From: Aurantiochytrium sp. KH105
Lineage: Eukaryota > Sar > Bigyra > Thraustochytrida > Thraustochytriidae
Direction of reading: 5' to 3'
DNA length: 64,000 bases
Assembly (NCBI GenBank): GCA_003116975.1
Contig: BGKB01000070.1
Span: 278,920-342,919, forward strand
The notes under the pieces are model-generated. The model ran no database searches, was not told the DNA's origin, and saw only the letters and a list, made by a program, of their open reading frames with translations. The position numbers were made by a program, and so were the translations under genes. Positions 54,896 through 64,000 of the stretch are shown piece by piece (position 1 is the stretch's first letter; each line of letters starts with the position of its first letter).

Positions 54896-56767
54896 ATGCC
54901 CGTGGTGAGCGTGAAGCGCGACTCCCTCTTCCGGGAGCTGGGCAAGGAGTACACGGAAGAGGAGTTCGACCAACTCTGCTTCGACTACGGCATCGAGCTC
55001 GATGACGTCGAGGAGGAGGAGGGCGAGGTGATCTACAAGATCGATATTCCCGCCAACAGATACGACCTCCTGTGCCTGGAAGGTCTCGCGCGCGCGCTCA
55101 ACGTGTTCAACGGGAATGAAAAGCTGCCCGTCTTCAAGACGGTGGCCCCTGCTGACCCCGGCCCCACGCGGATCACTGTGCACAAGGAAACCCAGCAGAT
55201 TCGTCCCTTTGTGGTCTCGGCCGTGCTTCGCGGACTCAATCTCACCGAGGAGTCGTACCGGAGCTGCCTCGATCTCCAGGATCAGTTGCATCGGAACTTG
55301 TGCCGTCGGCGCACCCTGGTCGCAATTGGCACGCACGATCTCGACAACATCGAGGGCCCTTTCACGTACGAGGCTCTCGCTCCCGAGGACATTCGCTTTG
55401 TGCACCTCTTTGAGACCAAGGAGATGAACGCGCGCGAGATTCTCGACGACTTTCGGGTCAACCCGGAGCGCAGGGCGCTCAAGCCGTACACGGATATTAT
55501 TTACGACTCGCCCGTGTACCCGGTCATCTATGACAAAAACCGCCAAGTGGTCTCGCTGCCCCCGATCATCAACGGTTCGGTCTCCAAGATGTCCAAGGAC
55601 ACCAAGAACATGTTTATTGAGTGCACTGCCACCGACATGACCAAGGCTAAAATTGTGCTCAACACGATTGTTGCCATGTTCGCGCGTTACTGCGATACGC
55701 CCGAGTGCGTCGAGACTGTCGATGTGGTCTACAATGAGCCCGTGCTTCCGGGCGGCAGCACCGAGCCGATCTCGAACATGACGTGCCCAGACCTCTCGAC
55801 GCGTGCTGCCGATGCGGATGTTGCCCGCGTGCAGAGCACGATTGGCGCCGAAGTGCCCGCGCAGGACATGCGCCAGCTCGTTGAGCGAATGCAGCTTGGG
55901 CCGGCCACCCTCAACGACGACGAAACTGTACTGACTGTCACCGTACCCGTGACGCGTAGCGATATCTTGCACGAGGTCGACATCGCCGAGGATATCGCCA
56001 TCGCCTACGGCTACAATAACATTGTCAAGACGGTACCCGTTTCGCACCGTCCGGGCAAGGAACTCCCTGTGAACCTTTTGAGCGACCTCTTGCGTTACGA
56101 GATTAGCCGTCAAGGCTACATGGAGTGCATGACGCTTGGCTTGTGCTCTTTGGACGAGAACTTCAAGTATCTTAACCGCGAGGACCCGGGCAATCTTGCC
56201 GTGACCCTGGCAAACCCCAAGACCATTGAGTTCCAGTGTGTGCGCACCTCCTTGTTGCCTGGTGTGGTAAAGACACTGGGCGAGAACATGTCGCTCAAGA
56301 TTTCCGAGGGTATCCGACTCTTTGAAGTCTCTGATGTTGTCTTGCGTGACCCACGCACTCCTGGCGAGAAGGATATCGGCTGCCGGAACGAGCGCCACCT
56401 CGCCGCGCTGCACGCTGGCCTCGCTTCGAGCTTTGAGACCATCCACGGTCTTGTTGACCGTATCATGCAGGTTCTCTCTGTGGTCCCGGCCAAGGAGTAC
56501 TGCCCTGAGGCCCACGACAGCTCGCTGGTGCAGACTCTCATTTCCGACGGTGCCTCCATTGGCGAGTACAAGCTTGTGAGCCGTGACGAGGACCGCATGT
56601 TCTTCCCTGGCCGTGGTGCGACGATCATGTGGAAGCCCCACGACGCCACCGAGTACACCGAGCTTGGTTCCTTTGGCGTTCTCCACGTCGAGGTTCTGCA
56701 GAACTTTTCCATTCCGTTTCCCTGCACGGTTTTGGAGATGACCATCGAGCCTTTTGTTCGAGAATAA
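54896..56767 (+). CDS. FARSB: Phenylalanine-tRNA ligase beta subunit, cytosolic type
   Basis: 623 residues, the usual length for the archaeal/eukaryotic beta chain. The N-terminus MPVVSVKRDSLFRELGKEYTEEEFDQLCFDYGIELD is typical. IDIPANRYDLLCLEGLARALN, the B3/4 editing region (about 105-280), the B5 region (VTVPVTRSDILHEVDIAEDIAIAYGYNNI) and the catalytic-like core (GLCSLDENFKYLNRE, SLKISEGIRLFEVSDV) follow in order. With the alpha chain (not in this window) it charges tRNA-Phe and edits mischarged Tyr in the cytosol. ATG 54896 sits in a good context (AAGATGCCC). Strong codon bias indicates high expression. A 684-codon antisense frame is a by-product of that bias. Confidence 0.97.
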   Translation: MPVVSVKRDSLFRELGKEYTEEEFDQLCFDYGIELDDVEEEEGEVIYKIDIPANRYDLLCLEGLARALNVFNGNEKLPVFKTVAPADPGPTRITVHKETQQIRPFVVSAVLRGLNLTEESYRSCLDLQDQLHRNLCRRRTLVAIGTHDLDNIEGPFTYEALAPEDIRFVHLFETKEMNAREILDDFRVNPERRALKPYTDIIYDSPVYPVIYDKNRQVVSLPPIINGSVSKMSKDTKNMFIECTATDMTKAKIVLNTIVAMFARYCDTPECVETVDVVYNEPVLPGGSTEPISNMTCPDLSTRAADADVARVQSTIGAEVPAQDMRQLVERMQLGPATLNDDETVLTVTVPVTRSDILHEVDIAEDIAIAYGYNNIVKTVPVSHRPGKELPVNLLSDLLRYEISRQGYMECMTLGLCSLDENFKYLNREDPGNLAVTLANPKTIEFQCVRTSLLPGVVKTLGENMSLKISEGIRLFEVSDVVLRDPRTPGEKDIGCRNERHLAALHAGLASSFETIHGLVDRIMQVLSVVPAKEYCPEAHDSSLVQTLISDGASIGEYKLVSRDEDRMFFPGRGATIMWKPHDATEYTELGSFGVLHVEVLQNFSIPFPCTVLEMTIEPFVRE

Positions 56768-58600
<1,833 letters not shown>

Positions 58601-59161
58601 CCAGGGTTTGCTGGCCTGCCATTTGCGAGTAAAGTGTGTCCTCGCCTGGCTTTCGGTCGTGCACGAATCGGCCTGCTGGTCGTCGCGGCAAACGTCATGA
58701 TGCTATCGAGAACTAAGACGAAAATAAGAAACAAGATGATGGAAAATAAAGTTATCATCTTCTGTTCGGGTGCATTTTCCTCCCCTTTCCATCTTGACGA
58801 GAACGAACCAGTGCATATCGTCGATCTCAATTTCCCAGTTCACCGCAAATGTACCAATCTCGGCTGAGACGTCAAAAGAAGATACCCTAATTCTGCAAGA
58901 AAGCGAATCTTACGCACTGTCAAAACTGTAATTGAAATGTTTATCTTTTATGGTAAACCGTCGTATGCGGAAGCATCGTTTACAGTGCTAGAAGCCTCGT
59001 AAGCGACGAAAGATTCTTCTTTGTATCAGACACAACGACAGTAGTGGTAGACTGGAAGGAAAGAATGGAAAAGACCTTTTGAGAGTCTACAAAACCCCGA
59101 AGAATTACGTTGTTTACAGTGATTTTCCTTTATCCCCAGACGCCGCTCGTTAAAGGGGGTA
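58601..59161. other. Convergent intergenic region
   Basis: This stretch lies between the 3' ends of RAB2 and the 7TM receptor gene. A-rich sequence with AATAAAG-like strings (about 58744) may supply polyadenylation. No gene is seen. Confidence 0.6.
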
Positions 59162-61975
59162 TTACTTGGCTTCTGGGGCTTTCGGACTAAGAGCATCCGG
59201 GGCTTTAGGACTGAGCGCATCCGGAACTGAGGTAACCGAGGCAACCGAGGAATTCCGCATGCCACCCACAACGGAGGATCCGCGCGGCTTAACGGAGGAG
59301 AGGAACTTTCCACGAAACGCAAACGCGGCCAGGGAAGACTTGTTGCGGACATCGATCTCGCGTCGCAATACAAAGACCTTGTCACGGAGTTTATTGAGCT
59401 TTTTGGACTCGGTGTCGAGCTCCTTCTTGAGCTGGTCGACTCGATTGCCCTGTTTCTGCGTCGAGTCCACGAGGCGGTCGAGTAAGGCATCGATGCTGAG
59501 CGGTGGCTCTTCCTTGGCAACGTTGTACTTGCCGCTGCTCGAACTTGCCTCGTCTCCGTCGATGACACTTGGAGCGATCGACGCCACGGTCCGCGTATCC
59601 CCTACACCAGGCGAAGACGTCGATAGGCTTAGCACAGAGCGCAGTACAGAGCGCACAGAGTGGCGACGAAAGATTCCACGAATCGATTGGTAGCACGGTA
59701 TCATGACCATATGAGGAACCAGGACCAACTCGGAGAGAATGAGGAGGAGAGCGCCAATCATGTTCTTGGTCGTGGCTGTCACCTTTTCGTCAATTGCGCC
59801 CCAAATGAGAAAGGCCACACCCGTATAGATGACCCCGAGCGTGACAATGATCCATTGCAATCGCGAGTTATTGAAGCGCGAAGGCAGCGACTCGGTTTGC
59901 AAAGCCACCCAGCCTGCATACATTAGAGGAGGGACCTTGATGGAGGTCAAGGCGAGCATAAAGGGTCGTGCGCTGACGTCCGTCGTCGTGAGGCAGAAAC
60001 GTTGAGTATGGTTCTTGATGTGCGGCTTGGTGACGACGAGCATCGCCACGGCCACGATGAGGTCTGGCAGTGAAACAAGCACAAGCTGTTTAATCAAGCG
60101 CCTTGAGGTGAACTTGACGCGCTTCATTGCCATATACTTGTATAGGCGCACGAGAAAGGCGGACTTGATGAAAAAGGTTGACAAAACCAGGTGCATCCCC
60201 ACCAGGGGAAAAAGAACCTCAAGATGGCACGTCACGGTCTCCTCCGTTGCCGAGAGGTGATGCGAATTTTCAGGGATCTCATCGAGCGGTGTCGAAAACA
60301 TTGCCAAGAAAATACCGGCCAGACCAACCAGAAGACAACCCATACACTGGAAGACGAGAACGTCGAGCCGGTTGGAACGCACGACTGGTGATTTGCGCAT
60401 GACGAAAAAGATGATCAAGGCCAAGCCCGAGATCAAGACTGTGACGGCCCCGGCTGCAAAGGAAAGAGCGCGAAGAAAAAAGCCCATGTCGCCAGTGTCG
60501 AGCTTTTCCTCGACGTTCAGAATCACGGGCGAGACGTCTAGGTCTGTTGTGACATCGAAAAGTTCCAATAGCAGCGTCACAATCTCTTGTCCCGGGATTT
60601 CGAGAAGCCAGTACTTGCTGTCGTCGCTAAGAACGCTTGCGTTGCCGTGCAAACTGACGCCGTTTCCGAAGAGAGACCAAGCCGGCGAAAATGCGGTGAC
60701 GCGGTCTTCGAGTACGTGGTCAACGAGGAGAAAGGAGAGCGTTTCGTCTGTTTCCGTCCATGAACCACAGTTGCGGACGCGATCGCACGGGTCGCCCAGG
60801 TCGAGCAAAAATTCTTCGGTCGAATAGTCGGCAGCTCTGGCAATTTGGCGCAGGTTTGCAGAGTCAAGAGCGTACATTTCGACTGGCAGCGACTCGCGAC
60901 ACGGGGAGCAAATGCACTCGTAGTCGTCCGGACAGGCGAAACGGCTGTCCTCGGCCTCGAGAGCGGCGCAGTGCGCCGCAATCTCTGCCTTGGGATACTT
61001 TGCGTAACCTGATGGGCAAATGAGCGTTTCAACCTCACTTGAAGAAAATCGGCATGTTTCCCAACCCGTGTGAACATCCGTATGCAAGATCCCCAGGTCT
61101 CTCTGCACAATTGCCTCGTGGTGATACGAGGCGGGTGGGCCAAATTTGAAGTAGCCTCCGTCCGCCAGCTCGGCACTTTCGTTGAGATTCAGACGAAGAA
61201 CCGCCTCGAGGACCGCTTCCTGGACGTCTTCCGCGACGTGTGGAAACGCCATGAAGGCCCATTCGCTGTACAAATCAGTGCTGTGCTCATACGCAAAGTC
61301 GTCGTCGACTTCCCCAACAATCTTGAACTGACTTGCGTCGGCGAGCTGACCCTCGCGCACCATGGTCTCAAGGGTGTCCATTCTCACGAAGCCGACATCG
61401 GCAGCGCCGCTTTGAAGATCGGCGACCACATTGAATTGACTACCCGTGAATCTGAGCTGCTTTGCCGTCGTGAACGGGTGAACCTCGTGATGTATCATCT
61501 GTTCAATTTGGGCCTGGGCGCCTCCGAAGCTCTTGAGTGAGACCGCAGAGATAACCTTGCCGTCAATGTCTTCAAGGGTGTTGATCTCGTCATTATCGGC
61601 ACGCGCAATGATTTTTCCAGCGTACTGATGAAGCGTGACACCACCATGGGTCTTTTGCAGCGTAGCGATGGGAGCTGCGTGAGCGACGGCGCTGGCACAG
61701 GTCTGGACAAAAGGGTTGGCAATTAGAAAGTCCACCTTTTCTTCTTGAATGCAGTCGAGAACTTGCGAGTACTCGAGCGCCTCAAATGCAATGGAAACGT
61801 CGTCGAGAAAGGCGTGAAGAGACGCGGTGAGATTCTTGACGAGTGTCCGATTCCAAAGTTGTGTGGTTTTTTCAACGCCCTTGCTCGCAAGCACGCCGAC
61901 GCGAAGTGTCGAGGCTGCTTTGCACGGGACGTTCGCGTATGCAGCGAGCGCCGCGAGCAGGAGAAAGAGACGCAT
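59162..61975 (-). CDS. Class C-like 7TM receptor with a bacterial TtrS/PhnD-type binding domain
   Basis: 937 residues from ATG 61975. The frame extends to 62074, but MRLFLLLAALAAYANVPCKA is a clear signal peptide. Residues about 22-290 match the periplasmic sensor of bacterial TtrS-like histidine kinases and the PhnD family. The segments are NPFVQTC, ARADNDEINTLEDIDGK, SAVSLKSFGG, RFTGSQFNVVADLQSGAADVG and HSTDLYSEWAFMAFPHV, in that order. A Cys-rich segment follows at about 295-400. Seven helices lie at about 498-760, with KSAFLVRLYKY after TM3 as in GABA-B-like receptors, and Cys at the TM3 start and in loop 2 for the conserved disulfide. The cytoplasmic tail has a coiled coil (about 826-876) and a repeated PDALSPKA. 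The protein is probably a plasma-membrane chemoreceptor signalling through G proteins; the ligand is unknown. Confidence 0.85.
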   Translation of the reverse strand: MRLFLLLAALAAYANVPCKAASTLRVGVLASKGVEKTTQLWNRTLVKNLTASLHAFLDDVSIAFEALEYSQVLDCIQEEKVDFLIANPFVQTCASAVAHAAPIATLQKTHGGVTLHQYAGKIIARADNDEINTLEDIDGKVISAVSLKSFGGAQAQIEQMIHHEVHPFTTAKQLRFTGSQFNVVADLQSGAADVGFVRMDTLETMVREGQLADASQFKIVGEVDDDFAYEHSTDLYSEWAFMAFPHVAEDVQEAVLEAVLRLNLNESAELADGGYFKFGPPASYHHEAIVQRDLGILHTDVHTGWETCRFSSSEVETLICPSGYAKYPKAEIAAHCAALEAEDSRFACPDDYECICSPCRESLPVEMYALDSANLRQIARAADYSTEEFLLDLGDPCDRVRNCGSWTETDETLSFLLVDHVLEDRVTAFSPAWSLFGNGVSLHGNASVLSDDSKYWLLEIPGQEIVTLLLELFDVTTDLDVSPVILNVEEKLDTGDMGFFLRALSFAAGAVTVLISGLALIIFFVMRKSPVVRSNRLDVLVFQCMGCLLVGLAGIFLAMFSTPLDEIPENSHHLSATEETVTCHLEVLFPLVGMHLVLSTFFIKSAFLVRLYKYMAMKRVKFTSRRLIKQLVLVSLPDLIVAVAMLVVTKPHIKNHTQRFCLTTTDVSARPFMLALTSIKVPPLMYAGWVALQTESLPSRFNNSRLQWIIVTLGVIYTGVAFLIWGAIDEKVTATTKNMIGALLLILSELVLVPHMVMIPCYQSIRGIFRRHSVRSVLRSVLSLSTSSPGVGDTRTVASIAPSVIDGDEASSSSGKYNVAKEEPPLSIDALLDRLVDSTQKQGNRVDQLKKELDTESKKLNKLRDKVFVLRREIDVRNKSSLAAFAFRGKFLSSVKPRGSSVVGGMRNSSVASVTSVPDALSPKAPDALSPKAPEAK

Positions 61976-63245
61976 TTTGCGCGCGAGCCTGGATTTCCAG
62001 CCCTGCGCCGCGCCACCAACAGGGCGCCGCTCGAGGCGCGATGGCGGCGCAAAGTTGGGAAAGCCTGGACCCAAAGAGGATGCAGGCCTGGAGTGGAGGC
62101 GAACGATTCGCGTCTGACTGCCTGCTTGCTTGGCCGATGTCTATCTGGGCATACGGCGGCTCAAGTTCCTACTATGTGCGCGTGCCAGATGGTCGGTGCG
62201 CGGGGGTGAATGCGCCGGCCGGATCCCGAGGTTCGCTTTTTCCCGGGCAGCCCCGCGAGCGTCTCGGCTGCGCAAGGCTCGAAACTCGAGGCTCGAGACG
62301 GACTGCCGCGGTTCGCGCCGCGCGAAGGACAACTGCTTTTTCGTTGCGGGAGACGGCCAGGCAGGCTTGCCAAGTCTTGAGGGGCGCAGATCGTTTTTTT
62401 GGTTGTTGCCACCAACGAAGTCTCGACCTCACAGTCAGCTCGATCAGTTAGCTCAGGCAGTCAGACATGTGCCGTTACGATCGATCGAGCAATGGACTCG
62501 AGCAATCGATCGCCCTCGTTGATCTGCCTACTGCAGTGCAGGCTCGATCAAGCGAAACAGCTCGGCGCTTTGCTTCGCCGGAGTTGGGGCAGCCTGTCCT
62601 ACCTACGGCGAAGCACTCTCGGGTCGACCTTATCGCGATGCTCGAAAACCGTCCGAGGCTTTCAGCGCGTCGTGCACGGTCCATCTCGGCAACCCGCCCG
62701 TTCATCCGTCCAACTTCCTTCCACCACCTCTTCTATTCCCATCATCATACTCGCACTCGTGAATGTGTCCGTTGAGTCGGGCAAACGGAGTTGACATGTG
62801 AATGCTGTTGGCCTAGCTTACGAGCGCTGGCGACAGCGAATTGCAAAGCTTGCGTATTTTGCTGCTGCAGCTGGTGGGCGGGCATAGGGAGGGGGGGCGA
62901 TCGGCACGGGCAGGCACACGCATGGAGGCCTGAGGGTTGCAACTTCACGACTACGTCCAGGCTGCGCGGGGACCCGCGCCGGATGGCCGTCTCCTCTTGC
63001 AAATTATTGCATGGCAGGCGTGACCATGCATGCATGCGTGCTCAGAGACGTGCGTGCATCTCAAAAGTCTGTGCTCGAGTCTGCCGCCGGAAGTTTTAAG
63101 GTCGAAGTGGAAGTTGGCAGAGTCCCAGCGCGGCGAGTCGGTTGTCCCGCGGCGGCGAGGCAGAGCTCGAGATGACAAGAAGCAACAAAGCTGCGTACGG
63201 ATGCGGGGCGCTGCACCGCGTGCATGCGTCAGCGTGCATGCGTCA

Positions 63246-63280
<35 letters not shown>

Positions 63281-64000
63281 TGTGTGCGTGTCCATGGGGA
63301 TGGGCGTAGTCGTGGCGGTTGATTCATGGTAGAAAATGCGAAGACCTCTGTCACATTGCAACGGTTCAATCGTTGCGAGTCATGGTCATTAGTTCACAGA
63401 GTCGTCCGTTGGAAGCTAAATTCCCCGTGGCGAAACGAGCAGGCCAGGCTAGAAGGCAAAGAAAGCAAAAGGCAGGAGTGACTCGTGTCCTGACTAGTCG
63501 TTTCTCGAGAACTCGCGACGCACCGCGATGGGACGCGAACGGAAGGAAAGAAGGCGGGAGGGACAAAGTGAAAATCTCGCAAGACCTTGCTTTGAGTCGA
63601 GAAGCTGGAGCCTTCAAGTTGCAAGCTGTGCAAAGAAGCCATTGTATGCTGTGCTTGCAGGGGAAGCAAAGAATGACGCAGGCAAGCAGCACATCATGGC
63701 GGCAGGTGACGGCGCGCTGTCAAGCATGCTTGGCGCTCCGCACTCACATCTGTTCAGTACAACCAGCGTGAAGGGGGGGGGGTGAGGGGAAAAGGCAAGG
63801 GAGAGGCCATAACCAGCATTTCATTGCTGCGTAGGTCATTGCTCCTTGCTGTTACGGGTGCACAATGGTCAGAAGGGAAGCACGGTTGTCCATCTATTGC
63901 TGAAGCAAGTCGCACAACGTGAGGGGGGGGGACCCGCTCGTTTTTCTGTCTTTTGCATCGTCTGGCCGCGAGACGTTGGACAGTCTGGCCTAGAGGCGTA
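61976..64000. other. Right-end region with no supported gene
   Basis: This stretch holds the promoter of the 7TM receptor gene. A GATCGATCGAG-type palindromic patch lies at about 62475-62515, and (GCGT)n lies at about 63247-63280. G-runs lie at about 62888 and 63770-63782. Frames up to 202 codons (61843-62451) extend out of the receptor gene on the opposite strand and are shadows or low-complexity. A gene starting beyond the right edge is possible. Confidence 0.55.
63247..63280. repeat. (GCGT)n tetranucleotide repeat
   Basis: About eight GCGT/TGCG units in the gene-free right end, followed by degenerate GTGT sequence. Confidence 0.9.

Follow-up and report, generated by a model that had tools for sequence, protein, structure and literature searches.

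A putative class C receptor with a TtrS-like, bacterial receptor-type sensor domain in Aurantiochytrium sp. KH105

Architecture of the receptor gene

The end of contig C70 (BGKB01000070.1, positions 278,920 to 342,919) of the 76-Mb assembly of the thraustochytrid Aurantiochytrium sp. KH105, a stretch of 64,000 nucleotides here called the window, carries a gene that joins a TtrS-like sensor of bacterial kind to a class C seven-transmembrane (7TM) core and a coiled-coil tail. We consider it fairly probable that the product is a class C G-protein-coupled receptor (GPCR) whose flytrap descends from a sensor module of bacterial membrane receptors with many outputs, and that it works as proposed below. 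Both halves were matched above curated Pfam cut-offs within one frame: PF12974 (Phosphonate-bd) on residues 53-267 (91.6 bits, E 6.4e-26, cut-off 27) and 7tm_3 (PF00003) on residues 507-748 (52.7 bits, E 6.3e-14, cut-off 33.5). These matches support the architecture of one chimeric gene with a class C core that the initial annotation had read from the letters, and the same open frame of 937 codons recurs in a second copy of the gene. The parts of the gene are as follows.

59162..61975, minus strand: whole receptor gene, open frame of 937 codons plus stop, no intron
61916..61975, minus strand: signal-peptide-like start, residues 1-20, a basic start and a hydrophobic stretch as read from the sequence
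61076..61915, minus strand: TtrS-like sensor of type II periplasmic-binding-protein fold, residues 21-300 (PF12974, NCBIfam TtrS, tree, model)
60491..61075, minus strand: cysteine-rich linker, residues 301-495 (nine cysteines within 308-403), without a family match
59651..60490, minus strand: class C 7TM core, residues 496-775, with Cys583 and Lys604 (TM3) and Cys661 (loop 2) (7tm_3, alignment)
59375..59500, minus strand: predicted cytoplasmic coiled coil, residues about 826-867 (heptad score)

M1 is the first in-frame ATG of the frame in both gene copies. The linker of about 195 residues between the sensor and the 7TM core had no Pfam match at E 10, its only relatives in its own genome at E 10 were the two copies themselves, and plasmids gave a single match (E 0.8); these searches thus gave no known domain at this place. 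The NCD3G cysteine-rich domain of the mGlu/CaSR group was not matched in the receptor at E 10 despite the nine linker cysteines, and in 20 bacterial loci viewed the 170 residues at the equivalent place hold at most two cysteines. The tail after the 7TM core is about 160 residues long, and the coiled coil proposed for it in the initial annotation gave a heptad score at about residues 826-867 that was reached by none of 500 tail shuffles. No HisKA or HATPase_c domain was found in the protein at E 10 (Pfam).

Second copy and constraint

The second copy lies on contig C181, with 94.6% DNA identity over 10 kb. It has the same 937 codons with no indel and 14 of 937 amino acids changed, and it also matches 7tm_3 (52.3 bits). 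Between the copies, synonymous divergence (dS) was 0.129 and nonsynonymous divergence (dN) 0.0071, a dN/dS of 0.055; by part, the ratio was 0.064 for the sensor, 0.035 for the linker, 0.056 for the 7TM core and 0.082 for the tail. The junction (residues 440-520) had eight synonymous and four other changes (dN/dS 0.15). Codon choice in all four parts of the receptor was nearer to that of four neighbouring genes than was the case for 200 random synonymous versions.

If the frame were a product of misassembly or contamination, or a merger of two neighbouring genes, its position about 2 kb from the contig end in both copies would agree with that, but two contigs with the same frame at this level of identity, the ratio of 0.15 at residues 440-520 and host-like codons in every part all speak against it. 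This reading was rejected on the second copy of the whole frame on C181, and we hold a chimera, a contaminant or two merged genes to be very unlikely, with a probability close to nil.

The two neighbouring genes, coding for the phenylalanyl-tRNA synthetase beta chain and a Ras-family GTPase, also diverge between the same contigs (dS 0.065 and 0.076), so the two receptor copies probably represent a single region, as alleles or as homoeologues. Over window 54896-61975 the dS of the receptor was nearly double that of these two neighbours. The contig ends upstream of the gene in both copies (window 62000-64000; L011:1-2000), and a GCGT repeat is located near the contig end at window 63218-63290. 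These ends may reflect a repeat that is difficult to assemble, or else the end region of a chromosome.

Receptor-type character of the sensor

PF12974 spans both transporter binding proteins and receptor sensors, and the type of the sensor was therefore tested. Of the NCBIfam models, TtrS gave the highest-ranked match to residues 20-285 (E 6.7e-21) with 74.4 bits against a cut-off of 750, and no NCBIfam model reached its whole-protein cut-off; a phosphate/phosphonate transporter subfamily (2.8e-11) and PhnD (9e-10) ranked lower. These models were made independently of the window-based search for relatives. The initial annotation had named the lack of a PF12974 or TtrS match as one result that would count against its reading, and both matches were found. 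The ectodomain motifs that it quoted occur in the protein and could be aligned with receptor-type sensors of bacteria.

The protein scored 193.0 bits against a profile built from 55 bacterial receptor-type domains (collected by similarity to the window sensor) and 61.5 bits against one built from 15 transporter-type domains, from which the five most divergent of 20 transporter-type rows had been left out. The best of 200 ectodomain shuffles reached 4.6 and 2.1 bits, respectively. In a sensor tree of 76 rows, a branch with a support of 96/97 set the 20 transporter-type rows apart from the window sensor and the 55 receptor-type rows. The window sensor stood among the latter, on a long terminal branch (2.08) adjoining an unresolved fork. 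The transporter-type rows came from a PF12974 search of ten genomes, in which frames of about 300 aa (transporter type) reached 234 bits; the tree took 20 of the 30 loci from this search, eight others being long receptor-type frames and two (L124 and L134) being left out. With the window sensor as phmmer query, only one of these 20 frames (L117) was matched, at E 0.0056, and receptor-type frames scored up to 104 bits.

Single residues divide in the same way. Arg198, kept in the window sensor, is found in 52/55 receptor-type and 0/13 transporter-type rows, and Trp239 in 55/55 and 0/15. Glu203 (53/55 versus 3/15) and Gly152 (54/55 versus 4/15) are also kept, as are the receptor-type residues Ser232 and Tyr236. 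The similarity extends to a Pro...Tyr...Leu motif (Pro281, Tyr284, Leu294) that lies immediately before the membrane helix in the bacterial proteins, which suggests that the module came from a membrane receptor and not from a free protein. The comparisons support a TtrS-like sensor of receptor type and not of transporter type.

Bacterial relatives with many outputs

A search of 398 Pseudomonadota genomes that was blind to architecture gave 39 sensor matches in 34 genomes, 38 of them in open frames of at least 455 aa and one in a 268-aa frame. Bacterial matches to the sensor had 22-35% identity. The frames of 32 relatives were scanned with Pfam and 30 carried a signalling output domain: 21 HisKA, six GGDEF (one with EAL), two SpoIIE and one LuxR-type DNA-binding domain. 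The remaining two were a 455-aa frame with PAS only and the 268-aa frame with nothing more. The GGDEF, GGDEF-EAL, SpoIIE and LuxR-type outputs are located at L077, L079, L082-L084, L092, L093, L099 and L100, all from Pseudomonadota. The name given in the initial annotation, a sensor of TtrS-like kinases, therefore fits as far as TtrS is concerned but is too narrow in the kinase, since the GGDEF, SpoIIE and LuxR-type proteins rule out that all relatives are histidine kinases.

Rows close to the window in the tree included two GGDEF proteins (L079, L082) and a HisKA protein (L088), and because of this mixture the output of the donor cannot be told. As the bacterial module lies directly outside a membrane helix, joining it to a 7TM core would be one further change of output. 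Six exact peptide patterns, which reach close relatives only, found no kin of the whole receptor in viral contigs. Phages gave one weak match to the sensor, in an unannotated record, and a viral fold library gave only distant binding-protein folds.

Structure, pocket and possible ligand

An AlphaFold2 model of the sensor (pLDDT 80.5, pTM 0.75) had the two-lobed fold of a binding protein. The best solved match with Foldseek was PtxB with phosphite or methylphosphonate (E 2.8e-16), followed by ArrX, HtxB and, lower in the ranking, PhnD, and PtxB was also matched by the sensor profile among solved proteins (9.4e-14). The initial annotation had proposed a model with inspection of the pocket between the lobes; the contact positions of the solved relatives were only partly kept. 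With the pocket positions placed by alignment at 25-30% identity, the Ser-Thr-Ser of PtxB corresponds to Ser149-Phe150-Gly151, the PtxB histidine to Gln180, and the PtxB tyrosine is retained as Tyr69. Among the 55 bacterial receptor rows the second place of the Ser-Thr-Ser is never Thr and the third is Gly in 45, and the histidine place holds His in 17 and Gln in 14.

The nearest solved structures (PtxB, ArrX, HtxB, PhnD) and the breadth of PF12974, which covers both kinds, would agree with a sensor taken from a stand-alone transporter protein of PhnD or PtxB type with phosphonate or phosphite as its ligand. The profile scores, the rank of TtrS ahead of PhnD, the tree split, the single weak phmmer match among the transporter-type tree frames and the replaced Ser-Thr-Ser and histidine contacts of PtxB all argue the other way, and we regard such a source as very improbable. 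A transporter origin of the sensor was rejected on the profiles, NCBIfam and the tree.

Ligand-contact residues of AioX and PhnD have been described (PMC5908839, accessible part), and by alignment certain window positions appear equivalent to them, the contacts of PhnD, AioX and PtxB being apparently changed in part. Salmonella TtrS likely binds tetrathionate through such a domain (PMC5408782, accessible part). By kinship the ligand of the window sensor is likely a small anion, for which tetrathionate, thiosulfate or a phosphonate would be candidates. That the protein is a GPCR directly sensing such a sulfur or phosphorus oxyanion, with a module that bacteria exchange among kinases, diguanylate cyclases and phosphatases placed on a GABA-B-like 7TM core, is a tentative and rather doubtful proposal. 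If true, the same environmental cue would be read by bacteria and by the protist living among them.

The 7TM core

When six receptors from this genome were aligned, Cys583 and Lys604 were invariant, and Cys661 was no more than one column away from the loop-2 cysteines in the other receptors. A profile of the six receptors, the window protein included, found GABA-B2 as its first solved match (E 7.1e-43). In a tree of 32 7TM domains the window 7TM was a lone branch of length 3.17 grouped only with its own second copy. PF12974 was found in this genome at the two receptor loci only. A recent swap of the module from a paralogue in the same genome was left without support by the lone long 7TM branch and the restriction of PF12974 to these two loci.

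The genome contains 27 G-alpha loci above cut-off. In one of the G-alpha matches, near full length, one in-frame TGA is present in both copies (C314:13060-14091, C245:49750-50781); it could belong to an intron, be a lesion common to both, or be read through. Comparable 7tm_3 fusions of Plasmodiophora were termed novel transporters (PMC4815078, accessible part), and by that precedent the window protein could be a transporter or scaffold rather than a GPCR. We consider this improbable given that Cys583, Lys604 and Cys661 can be aligned to class C receptors found in this genome, that G-alpha genes are many, and that Pfam gave no transporter domain apart from the binding domain.

Proposed mechanism and its standing

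From a single constrained gene, the kinship of its domains, a receptor-type sensor and the G-alpha genes of the cell, we propose the following. The sensor module would have been transferred from bacteria. The receptor would be sent to the cell surface, where a small solute, most likely an anion as in the solved relatives, would close the two lobes. Closure would be transmitted through the cysteine-rich linker to the helices, which would belong to a dimer kept together in part by the coiled coil on the cytoplasmic side and would activate one of the many G-alpha proteins of the cell.

Several observations weigh against this mechanism. Three positions that are conserved in the receptor-type rows are changed in the window sensor: Tyr or Phe in 52/55 is Gln91, Pro in 55/55 is Ser237, and an aromatic residue in 53/55 is Ala153. 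The way in which the receptor-type set was collected favours that side in the profiles and the tree, though not in NCBIfam. The sensor was compared with bacterial sequences only, and its bacterial origin rests on that comparison. The 7TM half is the weaker match of the two: the window protein alone gave no GPCR match in the PDB (E ≤ 1), a hydropathy threshold of 1.5 marked six of the seven expected membrane stretches and missed TM5, and the full-length model was poor outside the sensor (pLDDT 58.8; 7TM about 40-65), its uncertainty in the linker and 7TM core being too high for use, with eight helical pieces in the 7TM region and TM5 split. Support for the mechanism as a whole consists of sequence comparison and predicted structures.

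Two claims of the initial annotation are affected by these results. The count of seven helices comes from the 7tm_3 alignment, which spans the domain; hydropathy and the model do not reproduce it. As for the GABA-B-like marks, GABA-B2 came first with the six-receptor profile, but the protein by itself gave no GPCR match.

GABA-B2 is the silent partner of a heterodimer. A like role for the window protein, its ectodomain having lost ligand binding, would agree with the changes at Gln91, Ser237 and Ala153 and with a gene without a near paralogue. Since the sensor is constrained about as strongly as the 7TM core (dN/dS 0.064 versus 0.056) and Arg198, Glu203, Ser232, Tyr236 and Trp239 are kept, we judge a silent partner unlikely and prefer a sensor that binds its ligand.

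Class C receptors and other loci of the genome

There were 69 7tm_3 matches in the genome, by eye mostly paired. Examples of class C receptor loci are L016:4408-7839, L024:2177-5638, L031:465-3299 and L013:4631-7870. Besides the frame of the window, 34 7tm_3 frames were scanned, one of which is the second copy; the other 33 may include paired copies. Over cut-off, these 33 frames had nine ANF_receptor, four PBP_like_2, two OpuAC, one Peripla_BP_6 alone and one sCache_2 ectodomain, and in one further frame Peripla_BP_6 was just below cut-off. No ectodomain was recognised over cut-off in the remaining 15, some of which were retrieved only in part. The PBP_like_2 receptors grouped together in the 7TM tree (100/99), as did the OpuAC receptors (100/99), the sCache_2 receptor fell in a clade of four (100/100) and the ANF receptors were found in at least three places. 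From this tree, most ectodomain modules seem to be old fusions that were passed on by descent. An enrichment of three GPCR domains and of one G-protein domain has been reported for thraustochytrid genomes (PMC6050695, accessible part), which fits the receptor set found here.

Other loci were noted alongside. Front pieces of a PfaA-like polyunsaturated fatty acid (PUFA) synthase are located at C72:311448-314582 and C155:172083-175217, and rear pieces at C61:32-2791 and C290:39390-42377, the rear piece on C61 starting at the contig end. The pieces scored 930.4 and 455.9 bits, two copies each, all below the whole-protein cut-off of 1010.1, and the break may lie in putative tandem carrier-protein repeats. 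PUFA synthases of the PfaA type are linked with thraustochytrids, and the pieces agree with such a source; a primer for labyrinthulomycetes, in contrast, had no match. Two very long frames (5708 and 5831 aa; C27:303609-314666 and C56:295285-306354) each had several ketosynthase-region matches. Triosephosphate isomerase, of which fusions are known from stramenopiles, was present as four frames (263-293 aa) with no in-frame fusion in this genome.

Comparison with known systems

The initial annotation had taken class C ectodomains to be normally of Leu/Ile/Val type, or of BMP/PnrA type in some amoebae. This proved too restrictive, as OpuAC, PBP_like_2, SBP_bac_1 and LysR_substrate modules have been printed (PMC3251606 and PMC4815078, accessible parts) and this genome adds four or five more kinds. 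Fungal class C receptors (Allomyces macrogynus, SPPG_ sequences) carry LysR_substrate, PBP_like_2, OpuAC and SBP_bac_1; like the window protein they combine 7tm_3 with an ectodomain of the PBP clan CL0177, and PF12974 is not in their domain list in the accessible part of PMC3251606. Plasmodiophora brassicae has seven 7tm_3 fusions with SBP_bac_1 or PBP_like_2, read as transporters, in which the principle of the architecture is the same as here and the binding families are others (PMC4815078, accessible part). Diatom receptors with sugar-transporter-like binding domains have been described as well (PMC3727952, accessible part).

The initial annotation knew of no described example of its receptor. 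This holds for the TtrS-like module, which was not met on such a receptor in print, but not for other type II modules, which have been printed. A TtrS-like/PF12974 module on a class C GPCR was not found in a literature search that most subscription papers and domain-architecture databases lay outside, and a PF12974-class C fusion is not named in the accessible parts of PMC3251606, PMC4815078 and PMC10445921. The window receptor is a case of a known principle, bacterial binding modules on a class C core in protists and fungi, with a module not met in print. To our knowledge, in no earlier case had kinship to signalling receptors of bacteria, as opposed to transporters, been tested and found; here the test covered the PF12974 sensor.

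Because the kinship of the sensor can be traced residue by residue, the question of how a class C core accepts unrelated flytraps becomes testable, and this bears on how class C receptors arose. The receptor cores of this genome with several other ectodomain kinds would be well suited to studying how modules are exchanged, and with its ligand found the window receptor would offer a natural starting point for biosensors that work in eukaryotic cells.

The window ectodomain is of type II, in contrast to the ANF type of animal class C receptors. GABA-B carries an ANF domain but lacks NCD3G (PMC12716839, accessible part); its subunits include the best solved match of the six-receptor profile, and the window protein has a type II sensor and a cysteine-rich linker instead. 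PtxB, HtxB, PhnD, ArrX and AioX share the fold and a distant sequence kinship with the sensor, but they are free periplasmic proteins and their contacts are only partly kept here. TtrS and other membrane receptors with a PF12974 sensor differ in their kinase or cyclase output, absent here, and in some conserved sensor residues that are changed here, and they share with the window receptor the kind of sensor, its signature residues and its place outside a membrane helix.

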